Shown here piece by piece: positions 1-12,903 of a DNA stretch of 64,000 nucleotides. The first letter of the stretch is position 1. Every line of letters starts with the position of its first letter. The translations under genes and the position numbers were made by a program. The notes beneath the pieces are model-generated. The model was not told the origin of the DNA and ran no database searches. It saw only the letters and a list, made by a program, of their open reading frames with translations. Source of the DNA: Acidobacteriota bacterium (lineage in GTDB: Bacteria; Acidobacteriota; Terriglobia; Terriglobales; Acidobacteriaceae); assembly GCA_021792135.1 (NCBI GenBank), contig JAJYVF010000012.1, positions 62,001 through 126,000 of the forward strand, read 5' to 3'.

Positions 1-1258
1 TTCCCTGCGAGACCAGGGGGTTGACCGGACCGGCAGGCAGAGCGAGCGGGCCGGTGGCGCCGGGAGATTCGATGTACGGCCGAAAGGGGGCAGCGGTGTA
101 CGCCTCTTCCTGCTGTCTCTGCAGAGCAAGCTGCGCGGCAATGGCCGGATCGTCGCGGTCGTCAACCCGGCTCCTGACGCCCAGGAAGATGGTCCCGAGC
201 AGAACCACCGAGACGGCGAGCACCGGAATCGGCCTGCGCCATGGCCGGCGCTCGAGCCTGCGGTCGAGGAACGGCAGCAGGAAGAAGAGCAGGGCCAGAA
301 CGGCAGGAGTGATCACGACCGCGAACACCACCTTCGGCCCTTCCCAGAACTTGAGCCATTCGAACGCGGGCAGATAATACCACTCGGGCCGGGGCAGGTA
401 GTGCGTGTCCGCGGGGTTGGCGATGGGTCCCAGCCCCACCGGACGGGCGTATGCCAGGAATCCCAGACCCGCCATGAGGAGCAGCGCGAAAGCCATATCC
501 ATGAGAACCTGGCGCGGATAGAAGCCCTCGGGAGGGAGTTTGGGTGCTACGGGGTCTTCCTGGATGGGACCGGCTGCGCCAGCCTTGCGGAAGAGGAAGA
601 TGTGAATGGCGATAAAGGCGAAGATCGCCCCGGGCAGGACAAAAACGTGGGCGACAAAAAAGCGCGACAGGGTGAGGGTGCCGATGGTATCGCCGCCACG
701 CAGCAGGCGCGTGAGCCACTGGCCGATCCAGGGCACCTGGCCGACGATATTTGTCCCGACGGCGGTTGCGAAATAGGCCTTCTGATCCCAGGGAAGCAGA
801 TAGCCGGTGAAGCCCATGCCCAGCACGAAGAGGGAGAGCGTCGCTCCGGAGATCCAGAGCAGCTCGCGCCTGCCCTTGAAGGAGCCGTACAGGAAGGTTT
901 GCAGGAAGTGGAGGACCAGCACGATGATCATCGCGCTGGAGCCGTAGTAGTGGAGGCTGCGCAGGAAGTCGCCTGCCGCCACCTGTTTGGTGATGTAGGC
1001 AACGCTGGTGTGCGCGGTTTCCGCCGAGGGAACGTAATAGAGCGCGAGGCAGACGCCGGTGATGATCTGGGAGATGAAGATGAACAGCAGTCCCGAACCA
1101 AACACGTAGGCGAATCGCGCTCCGCCGGGAATCGGCTCGTCGAGGGATTCCCTCATCAGCTTGTCGACGCCGGCCCGCCGGTCAAGCCAGTGGAACAGGC
1201 GGGTTCGGGCACTGGCGCCGCGCGGGGCGGCAGAGGTTACTTCGTGCTTTTCATCCAC
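1..1258 (-). CDS. Cytochrome b of a Rieske/cytochrome bc complex (3' end outside window)
   Basis: Membrane subunit that passes electrons from quinol through two b hemes. The frame opens at a GTG 12 nt after the Rieske stop, with AGTGAGG in front, and stays open to the window edge (419 codons seen). Heme ligands are visible in SLHYYG and VLHFL (13 residues between the two His) and in VAHVFVL and AIHIFL (14 residues between), the second spacing being the cytochrome b6 type. The Qo motif PEWYYLP is present, so the subunit IV part is fused. Later residues form a charged region after the last clear helix. It is the third gene of the operon with the Rieske protein and the porin-cytochrome. The C-terminus is missing, so an added cytochrome c domain cannot be excluded. 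Confidence 0.93.
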   Translation of the reverse strand, partial: MDEKHEVTSAAPRGASARTRLFHWLDRRAGVDKLMRESLDEPIPGGARFAYVFGSGLLFIFISQIITGVCLALYYVPSAETAHTSVAYITKQVAAGDFLRSLHYYGSSAMIIVLVLHFLQTFLYGSFKGRRELLWISGATLSLFVLGMGFTGYLLPWDQKAYFATAVGTNIVGQVPWIGQWLTRLLRGGDTIGTLTLSRFFVAHVFVLPGAIFAFIAIHIFLFRKAGAAGPIQEDPVAPKLPPEGFYPRQVLMDMAFALLLMAGLGFLAYARPVGLGPIANPADTHYLPRPEWYYLPAFEWLKFWEGPKVVFAVVITPAVLALLFFLLPFLDRRLERRPWRRPIPVLAVSVVLLGTIFLGVRSRVDDRDDPAIAAQLALQRQQEEAYTAAPFRPYIESPGATGPLALPAGPVNPLVSQG

Positions 1259-1270
1259 GGTATCGCCTCA

Positions 1271-1840
1271 CTAACTCAGTTGTTCCTGGTTGGGCACATC
1301 GGAGCGGAAGTACTCGAAGTGGACCTGGAGCTTGCCCCCCTGGACTCTGGTGGGCAGGCGATCCATGGAACGCGGCGGTGGCCCAAAGACGTGCTGGCCG
1401 TCGGGGGCGAAGCGGCCGCCATGGCAGGGGCAGACGAACTCGTCCTGAGCCTTCTGCCAGGAGACGCTGCAGCCGAGGTGGGGGCAAATGGCAGAAAGAA
1501 CCTCCAGCTGGCCCTGCTGGCCGCGTGTGACATAGACCGACTGAGCCGAGACCACCTCGCGCCAGCCGTCACGCTGGGCAAAGGTGATGGTCTTGCGAAC
1601 GGGAGACGTCGAGCCGGCGAACTCGGTCATATCGCCGACGTCGGACCATTCCGTTCCGCTGGCTTTGGCGTAAAGCGGATAAAGGACATAGCGCAGCACC
1701 GGGATGGAGAGGAAAGCTCCCATGCCCGCGGTGCCGATGGCCATCAGCGCTCCGAAGAAGGAGCGCCGGTTGATGATGATGACATCCTTGCCGGCCGCGA
1801 CTCTTTCCGATGGTTTGCTGGTATTGATTTCCTGTTCCAC
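1271..1840 (-). CDS. Rieske [2Fe-2S] iron-sulfur protein of the bc complex
   Basis: 189-aa subunit that takes electrons from quinol at the Qo site and hands them to a cytochrome c. The cluster-binding motifs are CPHLGC (residues 119-124) and CPCHGG (137-142), giving two Cys and two His ligands plus the disulfide pair. The N-terminus has a twin-arginine stretch (NRRSFF, about residue 24) followed by one membrane anchor (about 28-50), as in Rieske proteins exported by Tat. It lies between the porin-cytochrome (9 nt gap) and cytochrome b (12 nt gap), so the three genes are surely one transcript. Family identity is certain. Whether the electron acceptor is soluble or membrane-bound is not shown here. 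Confidence 0.96.
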   Translation of the reverse strand: MEQEINTSKPSERVAAGKDVIIINRRSFFGALMAIGTAGMGAFLSIPVLRYVLYPLYAKASGTEWSDVGDMTEFAGSTSPVRKTITFAQRDGWREVVSAQSVYVTRGQQGQLEVLSAICPHLGCSVSWQKAQDEFVCPCHGGRFAPDGQHVFGPPPRSMDRLPTRVQGGKLQVHFEYFRSDVPNQEQLS

Positions 1841-1849
1841 GACGTTCTC

Positions 1850-3169
1850 CTAGAAGTTGAGCCAGAGGGCCATGAATGCGGTGTTGTTGTCGGAGGCGCT
1901 GCGCAGTGCGCCGTCGTAGTTGGTGCTGGAGCCGTTGAACTTGAAATAGCCCGAATAGTTCAGGTCGATATTGATGTTCTGCACCGGCCAGAAGCCGAAC
2001 TGGGCAATGTAGCCGCTGGTATCGGGATTGCCGTTCCTGCTGCCGGTGAGCGCAGCCGGCGCATAGAGAGCCGGGTCGGTGTTGCCGGTGGTGGAGAAGA
2101 GAGCGCCGGTGACCGTATAGCGGGTTCGCCAGTGGTAAGTGCTGTCGAATTTGAGAGTATTCAGGTGGTTGGATTTCGTGGTTGCGCCTTTGTTCAGATG
2201 GGTCGCATCCAGCTGCGATGCCTCGTGGATCCAGGTTCCGTGCATATCCAGGAGGTTCGGTCCGAAGGGGCGCTCGTACTGGAAATCAACGGAGGGATCG
2301 ATATAACTGTCCTGCGGACCGGAAATCGCTCCGGGGTAAGAACTGACATAAATCCCGTAAGTGCCCACCTCGAGATAATTGCCGGCCCAGGTCTGTTGCC
2401 ATGCCGCGCGCCAGTAAGGGGCGACCCCGTGGATGTTATAGCTCTGGTTAGTCCCGGTGACGGGCGTTGGCGCACCGGCGTGCTCGGTACGGTAGACGGT
2501 CAGGTCGGCGTAGAGATGGTCGTTCCACATGCCGTAACCGCCGACGCCGGCGACATCCTGGCCGAGGTTGCCATTGATCACGGGCGAGGCCAGTGGCGAG
2601 ACGCCGGATGCGGTCGAGATCCAGGGAAAGCCCCAGGCCGGCGTGCTGTTCCAGAGGTCTTCGACGGTCGGATTGTTATTAACGGTGATGCCGTAGTCGA
2701 GGTTCTGTCCGGCGAATTTGTGCTGATTGGCATAGCGAAGATCGGTATTATCCATGCCGAAGTGATCGTCGCTGTGGGTGTACGTGACCTGCGCGAGGGA
2801 GCCGAAGTGGGTGGCGAAGGCGCCCGCGAGGAAGATGCTGAGCTGCTGGGGGAACCCGGCAGCGTTGTTCTGGCTCGCCGGCTGATCGGCCTGGAACGCG
2901 GTGTTGGAAACGATGACCATGGCGGAGAGAGGGATGTATTTCGACAGAAGAAGATCGCGGGTATTGCCGACCTTGTCTTTTTTCGTCAGATCGGTGAGCA
3001 CATAGCCGTGGAGCTTGAAGTTACGGCCAAATGCAGTGAGCTCCGGAGGGTCACTGTGGCAGACGTTGCAGGAGAGGCCGGTCTGGCGCGCGAAGCTGGG
3101 AACGGCGCGCGCGTACTGCACTCCGAGAAGCAGGTATACCGAAGCAACAAGGGACAGGAGTTTCTTCAT
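1850..3169 (-). CDS. Cyc2-like outer-membrane monoheme cytochrome-porin fusion
   Basis: 439-aa exported protein. A signal peptide ends near residue 22, one heme c site CNVCH sits at 34-38, and the conserved string PELTAFGRNFKLHGY follows directly. The remaining roughly 380 residues have alternating hydrophobic and aromatic strands and end WLNF, as in outer-membrane beta-barrels. An N-terminal single heme plugged into a barrel is the layout of Cyc2, the iron-oxidising outer-membrane cytochrome, and of related proteins often listed only as cytochrome C. First gene of an operon with the Rieske and cytochrome b genes, which suggests electron exchange across the outer membrane. Substrate is unknown: Fe(II) oxidation is a hypothesis. 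A heme-bearing porin with another role is the alternative. Confidence 0.72.
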   Translation of the reverse strand: MKKLLSLVASVYLLLGVQYARAVPSFARQTGLSCNVCHSDPPELTAFGRNFKLHGYVLTDLTKKDKVGNTRDLLLSKYIPLSAMVIVSNTAFQADQPASQNNAAGFPQQLSIFLAGAFATHFGSLAQVTYTHSDDHFGMDNTDLRYANQHKFAGQNLDYGITVNNNPTVEDLWNSTPAWGFPWISTASGVSPLASPVINGNLGQDVAGVGGYGMWNDHLYADLTVYRTEHAGAPTPVTGTNQSYNIHGVAPYWRAAWQQTWAGNYLEVGTYGIYVSSYPGAISGPQDSYIDPSVDFQYERPFGPNLLDMHGTWIHEASQLDATHLNKGATTKSNHLNTLKFDSTYHWRTRYTVTGALFSTTGNTDPALYAPAALTGSRNGNPDTSGYIAQFGFWPVQNINIDLNYSGYFKFNGSSTNYDGALRSASDNNTAFMALWLNF

Positions 3170-3890
3170 TACTTACCCTCTCTGGAAATGCGGTTACAAC
3201 TTTAACAGGTGTTTCGGGGCCGGTCGGGGAGCCGTGGCAACGGGATCTCGCGCAGGGCCGGTCCGCGGCCGGGATCGCGTTGTCAGGACGTCCCCTTTGC
3301 TGTTGCCGCAAACCGATCATCCGAGCATCCGCGAGCGAGGGCGGCTCAGTTGTTTGCGGAAATCGTCAGCAGGCAGATTGCGCCGCGGGACGGGATTCCC
3401 GCTGTCCGGGAGGGGATCGGGATGGGAGCAGGATCCTGAGGGATTCGAGGGTGTGGGTCCGCACCACGAGAGGACTGCTTCGGGAGAACAGCAGAGGAAA
3501 CCGCTGCTTCAGGGAGAGAACCGCCTGCGACTCCGGGACGGTATGGGTATGGTGTTTGAATTCGGGCACCGATGCCAGTTGCGAGTGGCGCGGTTCCAGC
3601 CATAACCGTGCGGACTGAGTCCGGAGAGCCGCACCAGGGTGCTGCGCATGCCGGATCATTCCGATGCCCGGCCCCCGCAGAAGCACGGTAATCACGATTC
3701 CGAAGAGGACAGGGCAGCAGGGGCGCAGGAATACGCCTCCCGCGAAGAACCGGCGCCGTGAACCCGTTCCTGAAGCGGGCGGGTCGCGGCGCGGGCTGCT
3801 GTTGCCCCTCGTCAATGAAGTCCAGGTGCTCAAAGCGAATCGGAAATCCCTGTGTTCCTGGGGGTGGGGACCAGAAGCACGACCGGCTTA

Positions 3891-3896
3891 TTTATA
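3891..3896 (-). promoter_or_regulatory. Candidate -10 element for leftward transcription of the bc operon
   Basis: Reads TATAAA on the minus strand. A start about 7 nt downstream (near 3884) would put the centre of the adjacent CRP/FNR palindrome at about -47, close to the class II activator position of -41.5. No good -35 element is visible, as expected of an activator-dependent promoter. Inference from sequence only. Confidence 0.35.
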
Positions 3897-3923
3897 GATT
3901 AGTAACAGCGGGGAACTCCTTTC

Positions 3924-3939
3924 TGTGACGTGGATCACA
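3924..3939. promoter_or_regulatory. CRP/FNR-family binding site
   Basis: Perfect TGTGA-N6-TCACA dyad (TGTGACGTGGATCACA), identical in its half-sites to the E. coli CRP consensus. FNR-type proteins prefer TTGAT half-sites, so a CRP-like regulator fits better. It lies 755 bp upstream of the porin-cytochrome start with no confident gene between. The gene to its right ends convergently, so the leftward operon is the likely target. Confidence 0.6.
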
Positions 3940-4069
3940 ATGTTGCCGCGACGACCATGCGACGGTGGCCGCGGACTTCGGCACAGAAGCCCCAATTCCA
4001 CATTGCCAAAGGATCCACGAAACTGCAACTTCCTCGGGAGGACGTCTCGGATGAGACAACGCCGCCCGC

Positions 4070-5332
4070 TCAGCGCCTGTTCAGGGTGATCTGGAGGCGT
4101 GTGTCTTGCGGGAAGTCGATGTCGTGGCCTCTGCCGATCCAGCGGTAGTAGACCGACTTCGACAGTGCGTAGAATGCGAAGCCCCGGGCGACAGCCGCAT
4201 TGGCGGCAGCCATGGCAGCCACGCGCGCGGCAAAGCCGAAGCCGTTGCTGAGGACGCCGCCGTTGACCTGGTGGCTGGCGTCACTGCCATAGGTGTCGGC
4301 GGCCATCATTCCCAGAGCCAGCGGAGCGAGATATTTTTTCGGTCCCGAAGTGGCTTGCGCCGTGCCTTCGTCGGTGATTTTTACGTGGTCCCTGGAGGCT
4401 GTCTCGGCGGCGGAGAGATTGCCGTGAATGGCGGGAGCATCGTTTCGGGACATCTCCACGCGGCGAAAGGTGAAGCGCAGTTTCCCGTTGCGGCCAAACC
4501 ATCGCGCCGGCTGGGCCTGGGTGACGACCCCGTCCATTTGGGCACCTTCGGGAATGACCAGATCCTTGCCGTCCGGGGTAAGAAGCGGTTTTGTCAGCAC
4601 GGCCGTTACGGGCTGTCCCTTGCGGGCCGTGGCTGAAGTCAGTTCGGTCGTCAGCCGTGCTTCGATGACCCCGGTGGGTGTGGCGCCGTGGAGGTCAGCG
4701 AGCGGCAGAGGCGAAAACGGATGCGTCTCGCGGATATCCACCGGAGCGGTAAGCCGGGCATCGTATTCTGTCCCCGTCCAGATCATCATGGGGTGCCAGG
4801 GAAGCTGGTCGTAGACCCATCTCTGCAGCCGGTCGCCGAGGTTCGGATGGTGCACCGACTCGATCGCTTCGTGTTTGCCTTCCGCGATCTGGGTTTTGGT
4901 ACGGGCAATTAACGAAGGACGCTTCCCGGGCGCGCGCATGCGGACCAGGGTGGCATCCCTCTGGACCACGAGCGTGGTCATGGAGACGGGCTTCTGACCA
5001 GGGACGTCGATCGCGTCGAAGACGACGTCGGGCGCCACCGGCGGAGCGAAGTCGCCGTCGAGAAGGGCCTGGGTTTTGCTGACCATCGGGAGCCGGATCC
5101 TGCCGCGGATGACTCCTGAGATGCGGGTATTGACCGGCAGGACCTGATGGTCGAGCAGGTAAATGGGTGCGATCAGGCGGCCCTCAATCTGTTCGCCCGT
5201 CCTGACGCGATAGCGGTGATCGACCTGGATGCGAAGCGGGACTCCTGCCGGGATCTGCGCGACCTGGGCCGGCGCCGCCACTCCGGGAAACAGCGCAGCC
5301 AGAAGAAGGAGTTTCATTGCACGACCATCCAT
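4070..5332 (-). CDS. Secreted protein of unknown function
   Basis: 420 aa from an ATG at 5332 that has GGAGGG seven bases upstream; an in-frame ATG at 5317 is the alternative. The N-terminus (MKLLLLAALFPGVAAPAQ) is a signal peptide, so the protein is periplasmic or outer-membrane associated. The N-terminal third has beta-rich segments that recur in similar form (for example GVPLRIQVDHRYRVRTGEQI and the later region around LTTELTSATARKGQPVTAVL), suggesting a duplicated domain. The C-terminal part contains a Gly/Ala-rich hydrophobic stretch (GFGFAARVAAMAAANAAVARG). I do not recognise the family. It starts 75 nt after the YceI gene, in the same direction, so the two probably share a transcript. 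Confidence 0.82.
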   Translation of the reverse strand: MDGRAMKLLLLAALFPGVAAPAQVAQIPAGVPLRIQVDHRYRVRTGEQIEGRLIAPIYLLDHQVLPVNTRISGVIRGRIRLPMVSKTQALLDGDFAPPVAPDVVFDAIDVPGQKPVSMTTLVVQRDATLVRMRAPGKRPSLIARTKTQIAEGKHEAIESVHHPNLGDRLQRWVYDQLPWHPMMIWTGTEYDARLTAPVDIRETHPFSPLPLADLHGATPTGVIEARLTTELTSATARKGQPVTAVLTKPLLTPDGKDLVIPEGAQMDGVVTQAQPARWFGRNGKLRFTFRRVEMSRNDAPAIHGNLSAAETASRDHVKITDEGTAQATSGPKKYLAPLALGMMAADTYGSDASHQVNGGVLSNGFGFAARVAAMAAANAAVARGFAFYALSKSVYYRWIGRGHDIDFPQDTRLQITLNRR

Positions 5333-5406
5333 CCTGGCTCCCTCCGCGGGCTCGCGGGAAGCGCCGGCGTCTCCCCCGGGCCCGGAGAAAATCAGCACAA
5401 CAAGGT

Positions 5407-5985
5407 TCAGGCCGCCGGGCCGATCTGGCCTGTCAGAGTGAGATCGATCTTCACCTGCTTTGCCACCTTCAGGATGAAGATGCTGGGATCCTTGACTCCC
5501 CACTGAACATAGGGAATGACAAAGCTGCCAGTTGCCGTGCAGTGGCCGCCATCGATCTGGACGGTCATGGGCACGGTAACTTCATGCGGCCGGCCAATGA
5601 GCGTGAAGGTTCCCTTCACCTGGATCCGCGCGCTGCCCGAGCCGGGAATCTGTCCGGTATAGGAGGCCGGCGCGAAGACGATGTCCGGAAAGGCTTTCAC
5701 CCTGAGCTGATCGTTCTTCATCTTCTTGTCACGGCTCTTATCGCCGCTGTCGCCGCTGGCCGCCGACACTATGATCTTTCCGTTCATCTGCCCGGTGACG
5801 CGGTCGAAGGAGATGTCACCCGACGCGATGTGGAAGGTTCCGTTGACTTCGTGCGAACCGGTCAGGGAGAAGTGCACGGCGCTCTGACCGGCATCGATGA
5901 CGTAGTGGGAATCGTCGGCTACGGCACTGGACGCACCGGCGAAGACGATGAGCAGAATGCAGGCCAGCAGCGCTCGGTGTCCCAT
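5407..5985 (-). CDS. YceI-family periplasmic lipid-binding protein
   Basis: 192 aa. The start at 5985 (MGHRALLACILL) gives a clean signal peptide; longer upstream frames lack one. The mature protein follows the YceI lipocalin-like pattern: YVIDAGQSAVHFSLTGSHEV near the start, the VKAFPDIVF segment, FTLIGRPHEVTVPM, and a final strand. YceI proteins are small beta-barrels that bind isoprenoid chains such as octaprenyl compounds in structurally studied members. It is divergent from the isoprenyl diphosphate synthase gene 460 bp to the right, which is suggestive but not proof of a shared lipid. The secreted protein downstream is likely co-transcribed. Confidence 0.9.
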   Translation of the reverse strand: MGHRALLACILLIVFAGASSAVADDSHYVIDAGQSAVHFSLTGSHEVNGTFHIASGDISFDRVTGQMNGKIIVSAASGDSGDKSRDKKMKNDQLRVKAFPDIVFAPASYTGQIPGSGSARIQVKGTFTLIGRPHEVTVPMTVQIDGGHCTATGSFVIPYVQWGVKDPSIFILKVAKQVKIDLTLTGQIGPAA

Positions 5986-6447
5986 GCGTTTACGGTTCTC
6001 TGCCAGCGAGCCGAACAGGACAAGCGAACGCCGGTTGCGACGCTCCGCGTGGGTGTCGCCTGTATTCCTTCCAGTGTACAAATGCAAATTCCTCCCCGAG
6101 GTTTGGTTGAGATGCGCGGGATTGCCACGATTAATCTGACATGGAGAGCGTCCGGAGGTCATCGCCCCAGCCCTGTATGAAAAAAACATCACATTGCATT
6201 CATGCAGAAAACGACACCGCGCCCGGCCCCCATCCGGGAGCCGACGGGGCCGGTATCCGGCAAAGATGTCATTGTGCTGTCATTTGAGCTTAATGCAGGC
6301 GCGACCGCGCATGGTTTACTGGAGGTAAGGCAGCCAGAGACGACACAGGATTGAAGCGCAGACCAGCCTGACAGCTGGTGCGCGATGGACCTTTCGGCGA
6401 ATTACTCGTCCAAAAGAGACAGCTCGTCGAAGATGGAGTTCAGCTGC
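5986..6447. other. Divergent intergenic region with a Pho-box-like element
   Basis: Separates the leftward YceI gene from the rightward isoprenyl synthase cluster. The only strong signal is a direct heptad repeat at 6266-6283. In-frame starts for the synthase at 6385 and 6433 fall inside this interval and would shorten it. No confident sigma-70 promoter pair and no small gene were seen. Confidence 0.45.
6266..6283 (+). promoter_or_regulatory. Pho-box-like direct repeat (PhoB/OmpR-family site)
   Basis: ATGTCAT-TGTG-CTGTCAT: two heptads with an 11-base period, matching 13 of 14 heptad positions of the E. coli Pho box (CTGTCAT-N4-CTGTCAT). It lies 165 bp upstream of the chosen start of the isoprenyl synthase cluster. 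A TTAATG at 6290-6295 could be a -10, but it sits closer than the usual 10-11 bp. The OmpR-type regulator encoded at 13657 belongs to the family that binds such repeats. A link to phosphate is inference. Confidence 0.45.
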
Positions 6448-7374
6448 ATGGATTCAACACTGGCGAGCGCGCAGGCGCGGGCTCGGCTTCAGCAAGCTTT
6501 CAAGCGCAGTCTGCCGGTGGCACCCGGCACCGAGCAGCACCTGGCGGGAGCCATTCGCGAGACGCTGCGGCACCGCGGCAGCATGGTGCGCGCGGAGCTG
6601 GCGTATCGCGTGGCCCATTCCTTTGCGCAGCCGGAAGAACGGGCAGAGAGTCTGGCCATCGCCATCGAGTATTTTCACACGGCATCGCTGCTGTTTGACG
6701 ATCTGCCGTCGATGGACAACGCCACCGAGCGCCGCGGAGCGCCCTGCATCCATCAGCGCTATGGCGAAGGGGCCGCGATTCTGGCGGCCCTGGCGCTCAT
6801 CAATCGCGCCTACGCGCTGGTGTGGCAGGCGGTCGCCGGGCTTCCCACGGAAGTTCAGCAGACGGCGCTCAGCTATCTGGAGCGCAACCTTGGCCTGGCG
6901 GGCCTGCTGAATGGGCAGAGTCAGGATCTGCACTATGCCGCGCTGCCCGGCAGCCTGCGTATCCCGCATCAGATTGCCCTCGGCAAGACAGTCTCCCTGA
7001 TCCGGATTCCGCTGGTGCTGCCGGCGATTCTGGGTGGCGCATCACGGAGGGAGATCCGCCACCTCGAGTTCCTGGCTCTGTTCTGGGGACTCGGTTATCA
7101 GACGGTCGATGACCTGAAGGACGTGCTCTTCCCGGGTGGCGAAACGGGCAAGACCGGCGCGCGGGACGCGCAGCTCAACCGGCCCAATCAGGCGCTGTAC
7201 TACGGGATTCCCGGAGCCTTTGAGCGGGCCCGGCGCCTGATGTGTCTTGGAGGCAAGGTCATCTCCGGGCTGACGCGCCGCCGCGAATCTCTTGCGTTTC
7301 TGCTGGAGTCGCACCGCAGGTTCGAAAGCGAGATGGCCGGACTCTCCGAGGCATGCCCCGCCCCGAGTCTATGA
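6448..7374 (+). CDS. Short-chain isoprenyl (polyprenyl) diphosphate synthase
   Basis: 308 aa. Condenses allylic diphosphates with isopentenyl diphosphate. The first aspartate-rich motif is DDLPSMD (84-90), of the DDX4D type found in IspA-like farnesyl/geranylgeranyl synthases, followed by ERRG and a conserved His (102). GQSQDL (156-161) and the second aspartate motif DDLKD (221-225) are also present. I chose the ATG at 6448 because GGAG lies nine bases upstream; ATGs at 6433 and 6385 have no such site. The stop overlaps the ATG of the ABC permease (ATGA), so it is translationally coupled to an exporter. That makes a dedicated lipid product for this cluster plausible, but chain length cannot be read from sequence. 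Confidence 0.9.
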   Translation: MDSTLASAQARARLQQAFKRSLPVAPGTEQHLAGAIRETLRHRGSMVRAELAYRVAHSFAQPEERAESLAIAIEYFHTASLLFDDLPSMDNATERRGAPCIHQRYGEGAAILAALALINRAYALVWQAVAGLPTEVQQTALSYLERNLGLAGLLNGQSQDLHYAALPGSLRIPHQIALGKTVSLIRIPLVLPAILGGASRREIRHLEFLALFWGLGYQTVDDLKDVLFPGGETGKTGARDAQLNRPNQALYYGIPGAFERARRLMCLGGKVISGLTRRRESLAFLLESHRRFESEMAGLSEACPAPSL

Positions 7375-8483
7375 TTTTTGTAAAGCTGATTGTTACGAAT
7401 CTTCTGCGGCACCGCGTACGCACGCTCATCAGCGTGGCCGGCATTGCCTTCAGCGTGGCGGCGATGCTCACCGTAGTCACGATCCTGCAGGGCGCGGTGG
7501 GTATGTTTTCGGGGCTGCTCTCGACCGACAGCCAGATGATCGTCTTCGAGCGGAATGTCTCCGACCTCTTCTTCTCGAGCGTTCCCAATTTCGCCGTCCA
7601 GCAGATCCGCGGCTGGAGCATGGTCCGTCACGCCTCGCCGATGCTCTTCGGTGTCGTCTCCAGCTCCGATCATCCCATCATCACCTGCTTTGGCATCGCT
7701 CCGGACGACACCCGGCTGCGCGACGCGACCTGGGTCTCGGGAGACAGGAAGGCGTTCGCCAAAGATCCGAATGGAGTGGTGCTGGGACAGCGAGCCGCCG
7801 ATTTCCTGCACGCGCAGACGGGCAGCCACGTGGCGATCGGGAACGGCAGTTTCCTTGTCGTGGGCGTACTGAAGACGCGCAACGGATTTGAAGACGGCGG
7901 CGTTTTCATGCCGCTTGAGCGCGCGCAGGAGTTCTTTCACAAGAGCGGGGAATCCTCCGTCATCACCGTGAAGCTCACGAATCGCGATGAAGCGGAGGCT
8001 TTCAGGCGCCAGGTTGCACAGCAGTTTCCCGATCTGGTCGCGCTCAGGGACCAGGAGTTCGACCGCTCTTATACGCAGTTTCGCATCCTGAAGGCAACGG
8101 CCTGGGCGGTGGGCGGATGCGGCCTGATCCTCGGCGGCCTGGGTGTGGCCAACACGATGATCATGTCCGTCTTCACCAGGATTCGCGAGATCGCGATTCT
8201 GCGTGTGAACGGATTTTCGCACCGGCAGATCGCGGCGATCATTTTCGGTGAATCCGGAGTGGTGTCGCTGATGGGCGGAGTCGTCGGGTTGCTTGTGGGG
8301 ATCGTGGCGGTTCTGGCCCTGAAGGCGGTCCCGGCCCTGCACGGTTATGTGGATTCGCGTCTGCAGCCCTGGGTGATGCTCGCCGTGGTGGTGCTGGCCT
8401 GCGTGACCGGACTGGCCGGCGCACTGTATCCGGCCTTCTACGCCAGCCGTGTCCGGCCGGTGGAGGCGCTGCGCTTTGAATAG
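7371..8483 (+). CDS. FtsX-type (MacB/LolC/DevC-like) ABC transporter permease
   Basis: 370 aa. The start (MIFVKLIVTNLLRHRVRTLISV) overlaps the previous stop by four bases. The layout is that of FtsX permeases: one N-terminal helix (about 15-40), a roughly 200-residue periplasmic domain, then three C-terminal helices (about 245-365) with the typical VFTRIREIAILRVNGFSHRQI coupling segment between the first two. Such permeases do not import. They drive extraction or export of lipoproteins, peptides or other periplasmic substrates, or signal across the membrane. The partner ATPase follows directly. Substrate unknown; the neighbours hint at a lipid or a redox-complex component. Confidence 0.92.
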   Translation: MIFVKLIVTNLLRHRVRTLISVAGIAFSVAAMLTVVTILQGAVGMFSGLLSTDSQMIVFERNVSDLFFSSVPNFAVQQIRGWSMVRHASPMLFGVVSSSDHPIITCFGIAPDDTRLRDATWVSGDRKAFAKDPNGVVLGQRAADFLHAQTGSHVAIGNGSFLVVGVLKTRNGFEDGGVFMPLERAQEFFHKSGESSVITVKLTNRDEAEAFRRQVAQQFPDLVALRDQEFDRSYTQFRILKATAWAVGGCGLILGGLGVANTMIMSVFTRIREIAILRVNGFSHRQIAAIIFGESGVVSLMGGVVGLLVGIVAVLALKAVPALHGYVDSRLQPWVMLAVVVLACVTGLAGALYPAFYASRVRPVEALRFE

Positions 8484-9195: not shown

Positions 9196-10593
9196 ATGGA
9201 GACGATGACGCTTCAATCCGGCATGGAGGCTCCGGCGGCGCTGCTGAACGAGCCGGCCCGCGTGTCGTCGCCTGCCGGGGCTGCTGCCTCGGAGCCGCTT
9301 TCAGTGCTGACGCTGGCGGCGTTGCATGCCGTGGGCTGGCTAACCGTTTCGAACTTCATCGGCGTGGGGCTGGCGATCCTGCTGCTCTGGCCGCGGGCCG
9401 GCGCATGGCTCGCGCCCTGGAGCTACGGGCGCTGGATGCCGGTGCACATGAACCTGCAGCTTTACGGCTGGACCAGTTTGCCGCTGGTGGCATGGCTGCT
9501 GAAGATTTACCGGGCCGATGGCGGAGGATTGGCACGCTGGAGCCGAACAGCGCTGGTGCTGTGGTCGCTGGCGCTGGGGCTGGGCTCGCTTTCCTGGCTG
9601 GATGGCCACTCGAGCGGCAAGCTTTTTCTCGACTGGAGCGGCTACGTCCGGGTCTTCTTCCCGCTTGCGATTCTCTTCCTGTGGGGCGTGCTGGCGGCGG
9701 CCTTCCTTTCAAATCGTCGCGGTGAGGGCAATGCGCTTCGGTGGTTGAAGCTCATTGGGCTCGTCCTGCTGCTTCTGGTGCCCTTCGCACTTTATGCCGC
9801 CTGCAGCCCTGACATTTACCCGCCGGTAAATCCGGACAGCGGCGGTCCGACGGGCGCCAGCCAGCTGGAGTCGGTGCTGATCATCGTTCTCATTCTGTTT
9901 CTTCTGCCCTATGGGGTGAGCCGGAGGATTGCGGCGCGCAGACGCTGGCTGGTGGTCTCATGGGTTGTTTTCGCCGCCGAAGGGCTGCTGTGCCTCGGGC
10001 TGGGGCGCGCTGACGTCAGCAATAATCGCCCCACGCAGTTCATCAGCCTTGGCAGCCTGCTGGTGTGGGTGCCGCTGATGCCCGCGTATTACACCTCATT
10101 CCAGTGGCAGGAGAACACGCGCCGCTGGCGCATGGCGGTTCTGGCGTGGTGGGCTGTGCTGATTCCCACCGGCTGGTGCCTGTTTCTTCCCGGCGTGCTC
10201 GACCGGCTGAAGTTCACCGATGGCCTGGTCGGGCATTCGCTGACGGCAATGGCGGGCTTTGCGACCAGCCTGCTGGTACTGCTGCTTATCGGTCTGACTG
10301 GCCCGGAGGACAACGTCTTTGCTTCCCGCTGGGCATTTGTCGCCTGGCAGGCCGGAACCGGTGTTTATGTGCTGATCATGCTGATCGCCGGCTGGATCGA
10401 GGGAGCCGATCCCGCTTTCACGATGGTGCCGAACACGACGCGCAACGTGATCTACGGAATCCGGCTCTGCTGCGGGATGGCGATGGCCGCCGCATCGGCG
10501 GAGTGGCTGTGGCGGCTGCATCTGCGCCTTCGCGCAGCGGTGGGTTCTTCAACGGGATACGCGTTTTCCACAGCCCGGGCTCGCGCGCAATGA
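9196..10593 (+). CDS. CcoN-like (cbb3 oxidase subunit I-like) membrane protein without CuB ligands
   Basis: 465 aa, about 12 membrane helices. The second helix region reads YGRWMPVHMNLQLYG, matching the CcoN heme-ligand helix (His84 here). A later segment, LKFTDGLVGHSLTAMAGF (His347 here), lines up with the CcoN heme helix TDWTVGHVHSGALGW, but the second His is replaced by Leu. The CcoN copper-site segments WYGHN and GPHHLHYT have no equivalents: the matching stretch reads RADVSNNRPTQF. So it looks like a heme-copper oxidase core that cannot form the CuB centre and probably does not reduce oxygen. It may still hold one heme. The stop overlaps the next start (ATGA). The alignment was done by eye. 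Confidence 0.75.
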   Translation: METMTLQSGMEAPAALLNEPARVSSPAGAAASEPLSVLTLAALHAVGWLTVSNFIGVGLAILLLWPRAGAWLAPWSYGRWMPVHMNLQLYGWTSLPLVAWLLKIYRADGGGLARWSRTALVLWSLALGLGSLSWLDGHSSGKLFLDWSGYVRVFFPLAILFLWGVLAAAFLSNRRGEGNALRWLKLIGLVLLLLVPFALYAACSPDIYPPVNPDSGGPTGASQLESVLIIVLILFLLPYGVSRRIAARRRWLVVSWVVFAAEGLLCLGLGRADVSNNRPTQFISLGSLLVWVPLMPAYYTSFQWQENTRRWRMAVLAWWAVLIPTGWCLFLPGVLDRLKFTDGLVGHSLTAMAGFATSLLVLLLIGLTGPEDNVFASRWAFVAWQAGTGVYVLIMLIAGWIEGADPAFTMVPNTTRNVIYGIRLCCGMAMAAASAEWLWRLHLRLRAAVGSSTGYAFSTARARAQ

Positions 10594-10997
10594 ACCCAAC
10601 CCGTCCCTGGATTCTCCTTTATCAGTGGGCTGCCGGCCTGTGCGATACGGCCACAGGCGCGCTGCTGATCGCCGCCCCGGCCTGGACCTTTGCGCTGATG
10701 AAGCTCACGGTCCTGCCCCGGCCGGTCGCCTTCGTGCGTTTCGTCGGAGCCTTCGTCTTCTGCGTGGGATTCACCTATCTGTGGGCAGCGGCTGGATGGC
10801 CGCTGAGCGAGTGGCGCGCGCAGTGGCGCATCACGGCGCTGATTCGAACGGCGGCTGCCCTGCTGCTGCTGTGGCAGATCGCTTCCGGCGCAATGGAACG
10901 CGGATGGATGGCGGTGCTCCTGACCGACGGTATTCTCGCGGCCTTCCAGTGGATCGGCCTCGCCCGGAACTGGCTCGATGCTGCGGCCCAGGGGTAA
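10590..10997 (+). CDS. Small four-helix membrane protein of unknown function
   Basis: 135 aa, almost entirely hydrophobic, with about four predicted helices and short loops (PLSEWRAQWR between the second and third). The ATG overlaps the stop of the CcoN-like gene by four bases, and its own 3' end overlaps the MFS-cytochrome start by 20 bases, so production of all three is coupled. No cysteine, heme or metal motif is evident. By position it could be an assembly or accessory subunit of a complex formed by its neighbours. I do not recognise the family. Confidence 0.85.
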   Translation: MNPTRPWILLYQWAAGLCDTATGALLIAAPAWTFALMKLTVLPRPVAFVRFVGAFVFCVGFTYLWAAAGWPLSEWRAQWRITALIRTAAALLLLWQIASGAMERGWMAVLLTDGILAAFQWIGLARNWLDAAAQG

Positions 10998-12903
10998 TGC
11001 GGTGAGGCGTGGGGAGAACTGGCGCGGCATCGTGCTGATCGCGTCGACCTATGTCTACTTTCTGATCTTTGCGCAGTTTGGATTCCTGAAGCGCCTCGAT
11101 CAGATCGGGATCGCCGGAGAGGCTCTGAAGCCGATCATGGCGGCGATGGCGCTGGGCGGCATTCTCGCCAGCCTCCTGGCCGCACGGATGAAAGCGGCAA
11201 CCGCGGCGCGGCGTCTGCGGCTGGCTCTGGGCGGCTGCGCGGCAGCGGCGGCGCTCTCGCTGCTGCCGCTGCATTCGGCGGGTTTTCTGGCGGTGTCACT
11301 GCTCATCGGCCTTTCGCTGGGCGGGCTCACCGTGACGCTGGTTGCGCATCTGCGTCTCTGGCTCGCCGGGGGACGGGCTCTGCTCGGTGTGGGCGCGGGC
11401 GCGGGCATCGGGTATTTCGTCTGCAATATCCCGCAGATCTTCGCCGCGCCTCCTCAGCGGATTGCACTGGTGGCGCTGGGCGCCTGCGCCTGCGGGCTCG
11501 CGGCTTCTCTGCAGACGGAAGAAGCTGCCGAAGCCCCGGTTGAGCTTCCTGAGCGGAAGGCGGCTCCGTTCAGTCTGGTGCTTGCCTCCCTCACGGCGCT
11601 GGTGTGGCTCGATTCCGCGGCGTTTTTCATCATTCAGAACTCGCCCGCGCTGAAGTCCGGCACCTGGGAAGGTGCGGCGCACCTGTGGCGGACGGGCGCG
11701 GTGCATCTTGCCGCGGCTCTGGGGAGCGCGTGGCTGCTGGCGCGGCGCGGGACGAGCCAGGTGCTGGCGCTCGCCTTTGCCTGTCTGGCAGCGGGTTGTC
11801 TTTTGCTGCTCGATCCGGCCCGGAGCGCGCCGGCGGCCGTCCTGTATCCCGCCGGAGTTTCGCTCTATTCCGTCGCGCTGGTGGCCTTTCCATCGCTGCT
11901 GATGCCGAGTGTTACACAGGAGCAGCGTTCGCGCCGAGCCGGATGGATCTATGCGGTGGCGGGCTGGGTGGGCTCGGCACTGGGGATCGGCATGGCCCAG
12001 CACCTGCACAGAGTTCCGCCGTGGTTCGTGGGTGCGGCGGCTCTTGTTTTCTTCCTGCCCTGGGTCTTGCGCTACGGTCGCGTGTACTGGCGGGAGGGCG
12101 CGGCGATCGGGGTGGTCCTGATCGCCGCTTTGGCCATCGAGCACATGCTCGGGGACGACCCGGCGGCGCCGCGAGCGGCTGAATCCGGTGCTGCCGCGAA
12201 GCTCGCCGCGATGGCGCGCGGCCGCAGGGTCTACATCGCCGAGGGTTGCATCAACTGCCATTCCCAGTACGTTCGCCCGCACTCGCCCGACGTGCAGATG
12301 TGGGGTCCGGCCGGCAATCCTGAGGCGATCCGCCGCGAAGATCCGCCGCTCATCGGGAATCGCCGCCAGGGCCCGGACCTGAGCCAGGTGGGCGCGCGCC
12401 GCTCTCCGCTCTGGCTGAAGATCCATCTCATCGACCCGCGAGCGGTCAGTTACGGATCCATCATGCCGAGCTACGCGTATCTCTTCCGCGACGGCCGCGG
12501 CGACGATCTGGTCGCCTATCTGGCGAGCCTGAAGAGCCCGGACAGCCTCAGCGAGATCCTGAAGCAGGCGGCAGCGTGGCAGCCGCCTCCGGCTGCGCTT
12601 GCCCAGGCAGGGCAACTCAACGGCGCGAAGCTCTTCAGCGAGGACTGCGCGACCTGCCACGATTCACATGGGTACGCCAGAACGCGCTGGGGCGCGGATT
12701 TCAGCAGGCTGCCGCCGGATCTGGCAGCGGCTCGATTCAGGCACATCCCGCGGAACCAGAGCACGGCGGAAAGGCGGGCGAGCCTGGCCCGGATCATCAA
12801 ATTCGGCCTGGCGGGAACCGACATGCCCGGGCACGAATATCTGCCGCCCGACCAGATTGAGGCGCTGGCCAGCGAAGTGATGGCGATGCGGCAGGGGCGT
12901 TAG
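10978..12903 (+). CDS. MFS-like membrane domain fused to CcoO-like and class I cytochrome c domains
   Basis: 641 aa. Residues about 15-395 form some 12 helices resembling an MFS transporter or permease. Residues about 410-535 follow CcoO/FixO: CINCHSQYVRP (heme site 424-428), RQGPDLSQVGARR, HLIDPRAV and GSIMPSY with the candidate Met ligand. Residues about 545-641 are a second cytochrome c with CATCH (557-561) and a Met in TDMPGHEYL. Normal CcoO is about 200 aa with a single anchor, so an MFS-like module has taken the anchor's place. An in-frame GTG at 11002 is the alternative start. Overlap with the preceding gene and the CcoN-like protein upstream argue for one membrane redox complex. No DNA anomaly suggests a chimeric artefact. 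Confidence 0.88.
   Translation: MLRPRGNAVRRGENWRGIVLIASTYVYFLIFAQFGFLKRLDQIGIAGEALKPIMAAMALGGILASLLAARMKAATAARRLRLALGGCAAAAALSLLPLHSAGFLAVSLLIGLSLGGLTVTLVAHLRLWLAGGRALLGVGAGAGIGYFVCNIPQIFAAPPQRIALVALGACACGLAASLQTEEAAEAPVELPERKAAPFSLVLASLTALVWLDSAAFFIIQNSPALKSGTWEGAAHLWRTGAVHLAAALGSAWLLARRGTSQVLALAFACLAAGCLLLLDPARSAPAAVLYPAGVSLYSVALVAFPSLLMPSVTQEQRSRRAGWIYAVAGWVGSALGIGMAQHLHRVPPWFVGAAALVFFLPWVLRYGRVYWREGAAIGVVLIAALAIEHMLGDDPAAPRAAESGAAAKLAAMARGRRVYIAEGCINCHSQYVRPHSPDVQMWGPAGNPEAIRREDPPLIGNRRQGPDLSQVGARRSPLWLKIHLIDPRAVSYGSIMPSYAYLFRDGRGDDLVAYLASLKSPDSLSEILKQAAAWQPPPAALAQAGQLNGAKLFSEDCATCHDSHGYARTRWGADFSRLPPDLAAARFRHIPRNQSTAERRASLARIIKFGLAGTDMPGHEYLPPDQIEALASEVMAMRQGR

Follow-up and report, generated by a model that had tools for sequence, protein, structure and literature searches.

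The window analysed here, a 64,000-nucleotide stretch of an acidobacterial contig (G000:C74:62001-126000), carries at its left end three minus-strand genes encoding a Cyc2-like protein, a Rieske iron-sulfur protein and a cytochrome b, with gaps of 9 bp between cyc and the Rieske gene and 12 bp between the Rieske gene and the cytochrome b gene. The features of this locus, in window coordinates, are:

1850..3169, minus strand: gene encoding a Cyc2-like fused monohaem cytochrome-porin of 439 aa (ATG at 3169, stop codon ending at 1850)
3104..3169, minus strand: signal peptide, residues 1-22 (by inspection; helix 2-19 in the AlphaFold2 model)
3002..3103, minus strand: cytochrome segment, residues 23-56, with AVPSFARQT (from residue 22), CNVCH, PEL and FGRNFKLHGY (from the sequence; motif as in PMC8406198)
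3056..3070, minus strand: CNVCH, putative haem c attachment site, residues 34-38 (from the sequence)
1850..2941, minus strand: predicted outer-membrane barrel, residues 77-439 (AlphaFold2 model and porin matches)
1271..1840, minus strand: gene encoding a Rieske iron-sulfur protein of 189 aa, GTG start (PF00355, E = 1.1e-12, 48.1 bits, cut-off 20.3)
2..1258, minus strand: cytochrome b part of an 893-aa cytochrome b-(cytochrome c)4 fusion (PF00033, 166.8 bits; the reading frame crosses the left edge)

The Cyc2-like protein begins with a hydrophobic helix that, by inspection, ends in ARA before residue 23 and is followed by VPSFARQTGLSCNVCHSDPPELTAFGRNFKLHGY; its C-terminal residue is Phe, and CNVCH is its only CXXCH motif. 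The signal peptide, this single motif and the string FGRNFKLHGY (residues 47-56) are all as described in the first-pass annotation, which had also placed the Rieske and cytochrome b genes directly after cyc, an arrangement confirmed by the short gaps, the shared strand and the Pfam matches. Cyc2 proteins have been defined as porins of at least 365 aa with one haem site, an AXPXFAR[Q/K][T/Y] motif before CXXCH and PXL after it (PMC8406198). In the window protein, AVPSFARQT is followed by GLS and then by CNVCH, PEL is found at residues 42-44, shortly past CXXCH, and the length of 439 aa exceeds the minimum of 365 aa in the FeGenie rule; the same source places the motif five residues upstream of CXXCH, a distance that fits here if counted from Arg. 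In an alignment of 36 rows, 17 of the 37 columns covering residues 20-56 were invariant, as compared to 76 of the 383 columns after them, and no other part of the protein of equal length is as conserved as the cytochrome segment. No family for the protein was found in Pfam or NCBIfam, and a phmmer search against PDB sequences returned no match of weight (best E 0.32); neither a promoter and terminator search of window positions 3100-4200 nor an Rfam search of positions 1-8000 gave a match. Upstream of cyc, on the same strand, are genes encoding a YceI-domain protein (PF04264; 5407-6192) and a family-less 477-aa protein (4070-5503), approximately 900 bp from the cyc start.

The AlphaFold2 model, built from the window protein and 35 relatives, is barrel-like and of middling confidence (mean pLDDT 69.1, pTM 0.71); across the five models the mean pLDDT varied between 39.5 and 69.1, and values for the haem segment lay below 50. 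DSSP assigned 17 strand segments between residues 81 and 438, or 16 if the short segment 287-290 is joined to 293-302, and the protein is thus by prediction a 16-stranded, OprO/OprP-like porin fused to a cytochrome. In Foldseek, general porins came first among the PDB entries, with Omp-Pst2 at E 1.4e-9 and TM 0.60 (target length). VIA-align returned 50 porins between Z 22.9 and 20.7, in effect tied, which include OprB (Z 22.9), OprO 4rjx (21.9), 5o78 (21.8), OprO 4rjw (21.5) and OprP 2o4v (21.3). OprO/OprP have been named as a structural match for the Cyc2 of PV-1 (PMC8406198) and 5O78 as one for the Cyc2 of At. ferrooxidans (PMC10654088); since porins in general score about equally, the matches to these structures support a porin barrel only. 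The barrel-like remainder claimed in the first-pass annotation is therefore predicted, and a fold without a barrel did not occur in the prediction; the name Cyc2-like is supported by motif, length, single haem site and predicted porin barrel, the structure matches adding a porin barrel and nothing more specific. Matches to general porins are also what can be said for a rival reading, in which the protein is a diffusion porin whose haem is structural and which only happens to be encoded together with a housekeeping complex III; we consider this highly improbable, given that conservation is concentrated in the cytochrome segment and given the distribution and the operon replacement described below.

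The complete reading frame of the cytochrome b gene is found at L039:10578-13259 (minus strand) on the same contig. The 893-aa product contains CXXCH at 428, 555, 696 and 820, within four Cytochrom_C stretches, and the three linkers between these four domains, whose limits were set by hand, measure 34, 48 and 31 residues and consist of 59-74% Ala and Pro. Matches above the cut-offs to PF00355, PF00033 and PF00032 (Rieske protein and N- and C-terminal parts of cytochrome b) identify a bc complex, and its c-type cytochrome subunit is represented by the four cytochrome c domains of the fusion; the periplasmic cytochrome that the first-pass annotation had proposed to seek beyond the left edge is thus present, tethered to cytochrome b. 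Elsewhere in the window (9196-12903), a gene encoding a 465-aa protein without a Pfam match, in which several hydrophobic stretches can be seen by eye, is followed by one encoding a 641-aa protein that combines a weakly MFS-like part with a FixO-like monohaem part and a cytochrome c domain, an unusual cbb3-like fragment.

A scan of species genomes yielded 36 loci, all in Acidobacteria records, including the isolate Acidipila rosea (L024), which carries the operon. Among the 26 close loci (L003-L028), cyc, the Rieske gene and the cytochrome b gene were found in this order on one strand in all 24 that were long enough to show the order, the other two ending at contig edges; retention of gene, motif and order in 24 of 24 close-orthologue loci is more than would be expected by chance. 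The fusion contained four CXXCH motifs in 20 of 21 complete reading frames and three in the remaining one (L016), while three further reading frames were cut. Six of the 10 other loci (L029-L038) had a different Rieske-cytochrome b pair within 4 kb, two lay at contig edges, and two (L037 and L038) had none; no cytochrome b was present in the stretches read of L037, L038, L099 and L105.

Across 150 genomes of family f1, which is the family of the source genome and, judging from record titles, probably the Acidobacteriaceae, the Cyc2-like protein (E up to 1e-30) was found in 34, the cytochrome b (E up to 1e-60, up to six first-look candidates scored per genome) in at least 33, both in at least 29 and neither in 112 among the matches listed, a co-occurrence with a Fisher p of 1.2e-21, uncorrected for kinship. 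A cytochrome b gene was found on the same strand within 4 kb for 34 of the 40 loci encoding the protein in this family; two loci were at contig edges (G511:C459 and G388:C13), and four showed no cytochrome b near cyc in the stretches read (G435:C5, G399:C17, G411:C184 and G411:C128, the last on a contig that starts 2.7 kb before the gene). The 5.1 Mb source genome has four PF00033 matches, and by our own estimate such closeness would arise by chance at about one locus in a hundred; chance pairing of cyc with cytochrome b was rejected on the 34 linked loci. A housekeeping role as complex III was likewise rejected for the bc complex on its distribution: with up to six candidates scored per genome, the cytochrome b was found in 33 of the 150 family genomes, 29 of them with cyc, which also argues against the diffusion porin. 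The connection with the quinone pool proposed in the first-pass annotation is strongly supported by this linkage across the family. Together, the predicted fold, the haem site, the operon and the co-occurrence point to the protein as the outer terminus of an electron route leading to the quinone pool, and we consider it very likely that it serves as a dedicated outer-membrane conduit of the bc complex.

Three operon architectures were found, the window locus representing type I; one genome, G521 (L095), has the type I genes with cyc last and five CXXCH motifs in the fusion. In type II, cyc is accompanied by genes encoding a cupredoxin-like protein, a GltD-like flavoprotein with iron-sulfur sites, a Rieske protein, cytochrome b6, subunit IV, an octahaem cytochrome and a c-type lipoprotein (called by inspection). 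Type III consists of cyc, a small monohaem c cytochrome, the Rieske gene and a cytochrome b with one c domain, an order seen in all five loci read (L090-L093 and L133, the last cut within cytochrome b). The source genome also carries a type II operon on contig C2, in which cyc encodes a 447-aa protein 49% identical to that of the window. Type II genes were found beside cyc in three other families (f26, f35 and f79; L096-L098), and a distant protein with FARKY in place of FARQT was linked to type II genes in three of four loci examined (L103, L104 and L106, and not L105); as these loci adjoin type II genes, the link between cyc and the bc complex is wider than the family. The type II GltD-like flavoprotein encoded at L040:14961-16928 has 4Fe-4S sites, suggesting an NAD(P)H-linked step beside the Rieske/cytochrome b6 complex.

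Four genomes of the family (G130, G171, G416 and G488) contain the cytochrome b without a Cyc2-like protein. In G130, the genes for monohaem c, Rieske protein and cytochrome b are preceded by two genes. One encodes an MtrA-type decahaem cytochrome that matches TIGR03508 with 258.9 bits (cut-off 192.2); the product of the other, 750 aa long, ends in VRYAF, as a barrel would, and has only a weak GSU2204 match. From these sequences we infer an MtrAB-like pair, with the 750-aa protein as the putative barrel. No outer-membrane conduit was recognised in the place of cyc in the stretches read of G171, G416 and G488; a 942-aa protein found in this place in G416 (L108) was considered as a barrel and rejected, being a Big_3_5 repeat protein. 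In G512, a second copy of the complex is associated with a distant relative of the Cyc2-like protein that contains ARRY..CYACH (L111). The exchange of one conduit for another, seen in single cases only, is the best sign that this place in the operon is one for an outer-membrane conduit, and the replacement of cyc by an MtrA-type set further argues against a porin that merely shares the operon. MtrAB, MtoAB and PioAB are likewise outer-membrane electron conduits, and G130 has an MtrA-type decahaem cytochrome and a barrel-like protein in the same operon place; however, these systems consist of two proteins with ten haems, whereas the Cyc2-like conduit would be one protein with one haem.

A profile of 25 rows matched at least 115 of 396 Acidobacteriota genomes (up to four candidates scored per genome). 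Among the matches listed, 14 exceeded 400 bits and spanned the profile, and most others covered the N-terminal part; most of the 20 matches of this N-terminal type that were read have FARKY or a similar string in place of FARQT. Homologues were also found in nine plasmid records, from Caballeronia (two), Acidiphilium (two), Paraburkholderia, Ideonella, Methylocystis, Polymorphobacter and a record of At. ferrooxidans. These proteins are 30-39% identical over 93-96% of the query and share the N-terminal haem segment. However, the regions differ from the window locus in that a small c-type cytochrome gene comes next in seven of the eight opened (it is upstream in Paraburkholderia) and in that no Rieske or cytochrome b gene is annotated alongside in what is an incomplete gene table. 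The protein in the At. ferrooxidans YQ-N3 plasmid record is identical to that of Acidiphilium cryptum pACRY03 and has the same neighbours (L082 and L083), which may reflect either recent transfer or a mixed culture; for the copy in Acidiphilium multivorum (L087), the annotation gives two CDS. A published similarity network has Burkholderiales, Hyphomicrobiales and Acidiphilium among the neighbours of At. ferrooxidans Cyc2 (PMC10654088).

In a tree of 61 rows, constructed without verified Cyc2 proteins and without the third-architecture proteins L090-L093 and rooted by choice on the FARKY rows, the window type (22 rows), the second operon type (group B, 10 rows) and the FARKY type (17 rows) split off at 100/100, 100/99 and 100/99, respectively. 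Group B was joined (100/99) by another four rows, of which three came from type II operons, and the plasmid proteins grouped with that of G072 (100/100). Left out beforehand were L001, L002 and L039 (copies of rows that were kept), L028 (partial) and 11 near-duplicates dropped by eye (L004, L005, L007, L010, L015, L017, L018, L019, L065, L066 and L071); the plasmid proteins were added by hand, minus the second Caballeronia record, L083 (same as L082) and L087 (gene split in two). The first 50 residues of L084 were removed, and the start residues of the other rows were picked by script. Owing to a number of long branches, and to a warning by the tool that such branches meet, we make no claim on the order of the basal groups. 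One published acidobacterial Cyc2 has been assigned to cluster 3 (PMC9671151); as far as titles and the beginnings of abstracts in the open-access literature go, no report of Cyc2-like genes in a bc operon of Acidobacteria was found.

The window protein shares with the Cyc2 proteins of At. ferrooxidans and M. ferrooxydans PV-1 and with Cyt572 of Leptospirillum a signal peptide, one CXXCH, AXPXFAR[Q/K][T/Y] and PXL, as well as a length above 365 aa and a predicted porin barrel of about 16 strands. However, while the partners of Cyc2 are Cyc1, rusticyanin and an aa3 oxidase, the partner here is a Rieske/cytochrome b complex; the gene order of the rus operon (cyc2-cyc1-cup-cox..., with rusticyanin; PMC10654088) is not found, as the Rieske and cytochrome b genes come next. 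A further related system is provided by the pet and petII bc1 complexes of At. ferrooxidans and its proposed Fe(III)-reducing route, in which a bc complex is likewise linked to Cyc2 or Cyc2B (PMC8790237), although At. ferrooxidans has separate rus and pet operons and free carriers, as compared to one operon and a tethered four-domain tail here.

The presence of all published sequence features of Cyc2 is consistent with electron uptake, in which the protein would oxidise extracellular Fe(II) as in At. ferrooxidans, with the bc complex driving electrons uphill to quinones and oxidases taking the rest. Fe(II) oxidation has been demonstrated for three Cyc2 proteins, one per cluster (PMC8406198), and the fact that characterised Cyc2 proteins oxidise Fe(II) points against outward flow (PMC8406198, PMC7029218). 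RuBisCO large-chain matches above the cut-off in two of the 34 carrier genomes (G273:C92; G438:C254 and C132) were also counted for uptake. So was the origin of many related MAGs, which, judging from their isolate codes, we take to be mine waters. The six PF00115 oxidase matches in the source genome are a further point for uptake, but none is on this contig, unlike in the rus operon (PMC10654088). Moreover, no RuBisCO match was found in the other 32 carrier genomes, including the source genome, a count that covers RuBisCO as the sole fixation pathway and includes 11 of 34 genomes outside the class of 90% completeness and 5% contamination. Fe(II) oxidation by Acidobacteriaceae was not found in open-access titles and abstract beginnings, and uptake appears rather unlikely, though it is a live rival explanation.

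Outward flow, with quinol as the donor and Fe(III) or a like compound as the acceptor at acidic pH and low oxygen, is favoured over inward flow because no RuBisCO match was found in the source genome and related acidobacteria have been reported to reduce Fe(III); we consider it roughly twice as probable as inward flow, and, given a dedicated conduit, we put its chance of being the main direction at slightly better than even. Reduction of Fe(III) at low oxygen is reported for Acidobacterium capsulatum and for species of Acidicapsa; in At. ferrooxidans reducing Fe(III), Cyc2, Cyc2B and the petII bc1 complex have either been detected or been given a proposed role (PMC8790237). A metagenome study held acidobacterial Fe reduction likely (PMC3669403), while the authors of another study, who found mtrA and mtrB candidates in Acidobacteria without a complete mtr/omc operon, doubted iron reduction of the Shewanella kind (PMC5900883). 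The source genome itself has an MtrA-type operon (L123; G000:C41:70000-86000) that encodes, in one run, a decahaem cytochrome (10 CXXCH, 260.7 bits), an 882-aa protein without CXXCH that ends in HYEF, small c cytochromes and reading frames with 13 and at least 11 CXXCH motifs. Iron could also be incidental, the substrate being humic substances, a redox shuttle, Mn or a partner in direct exchange; Cyc2 has been proposed for Mn(II) and cathodes (PMC9040806, PMC5371394), and homologues occur on plasmids of soil and sludge bacteria, but no feature of the locus names a substrate and iron reduction is what has been reported for related acidobacteria (PMC8790237), so that we regard this as rather improbable.

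The best overall explanation, and probably the correct one, is an outer-membrane electron conduit of the Rieske/cytochrome b complex, with outward flow favoured. In the outer membrane, the monohaem Cyc2-like porin would pass electrons to, or take them from, a partner outside the cell that is probably soluble; the four c domains on their Ala/Pro-rich linkers would carry electrons over the periplasm, replacing a free carrier; and the Rieske/cytochrome b complex would join these domains to the quinone pool. Gene order, domain content, conservation and co-occurrence are direct results and the porin fold is a prediction, from which we infer haem attachment, membrane location, electron transfer, the reach of the tail and partner contact.

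The operon also points to the inner-membrane complex that is the probable partner of the outer-membrane protein, and it can be tested in a carrier that is in culture, Acidipila rosea (L024). As a tentative generalisation, Acidobacteriota may possess a general module that equips a Rieske/cytochrome b complex with an outer-membrane conduit of its own, unrelated kinds (Cyc2-like, MtrAB-like) being swappable; the window version, with four c beads on a leash, would tether quinol oxidation to the outer membrane and might serve Fe(III) respiration in acidic soils and mine waters. The use of Cyc2 as a genetic marker of Fe(II) oxidation has been advocated (PMC7029218). Should Acidobacteriota employ Cyc2-like proteins on the outer side of a complex that oxidises quinol, then to interpret every such gene as an Fe(II) oxidase would be to reverse some of the iron cycle of acidic soils, peat and mine waters.
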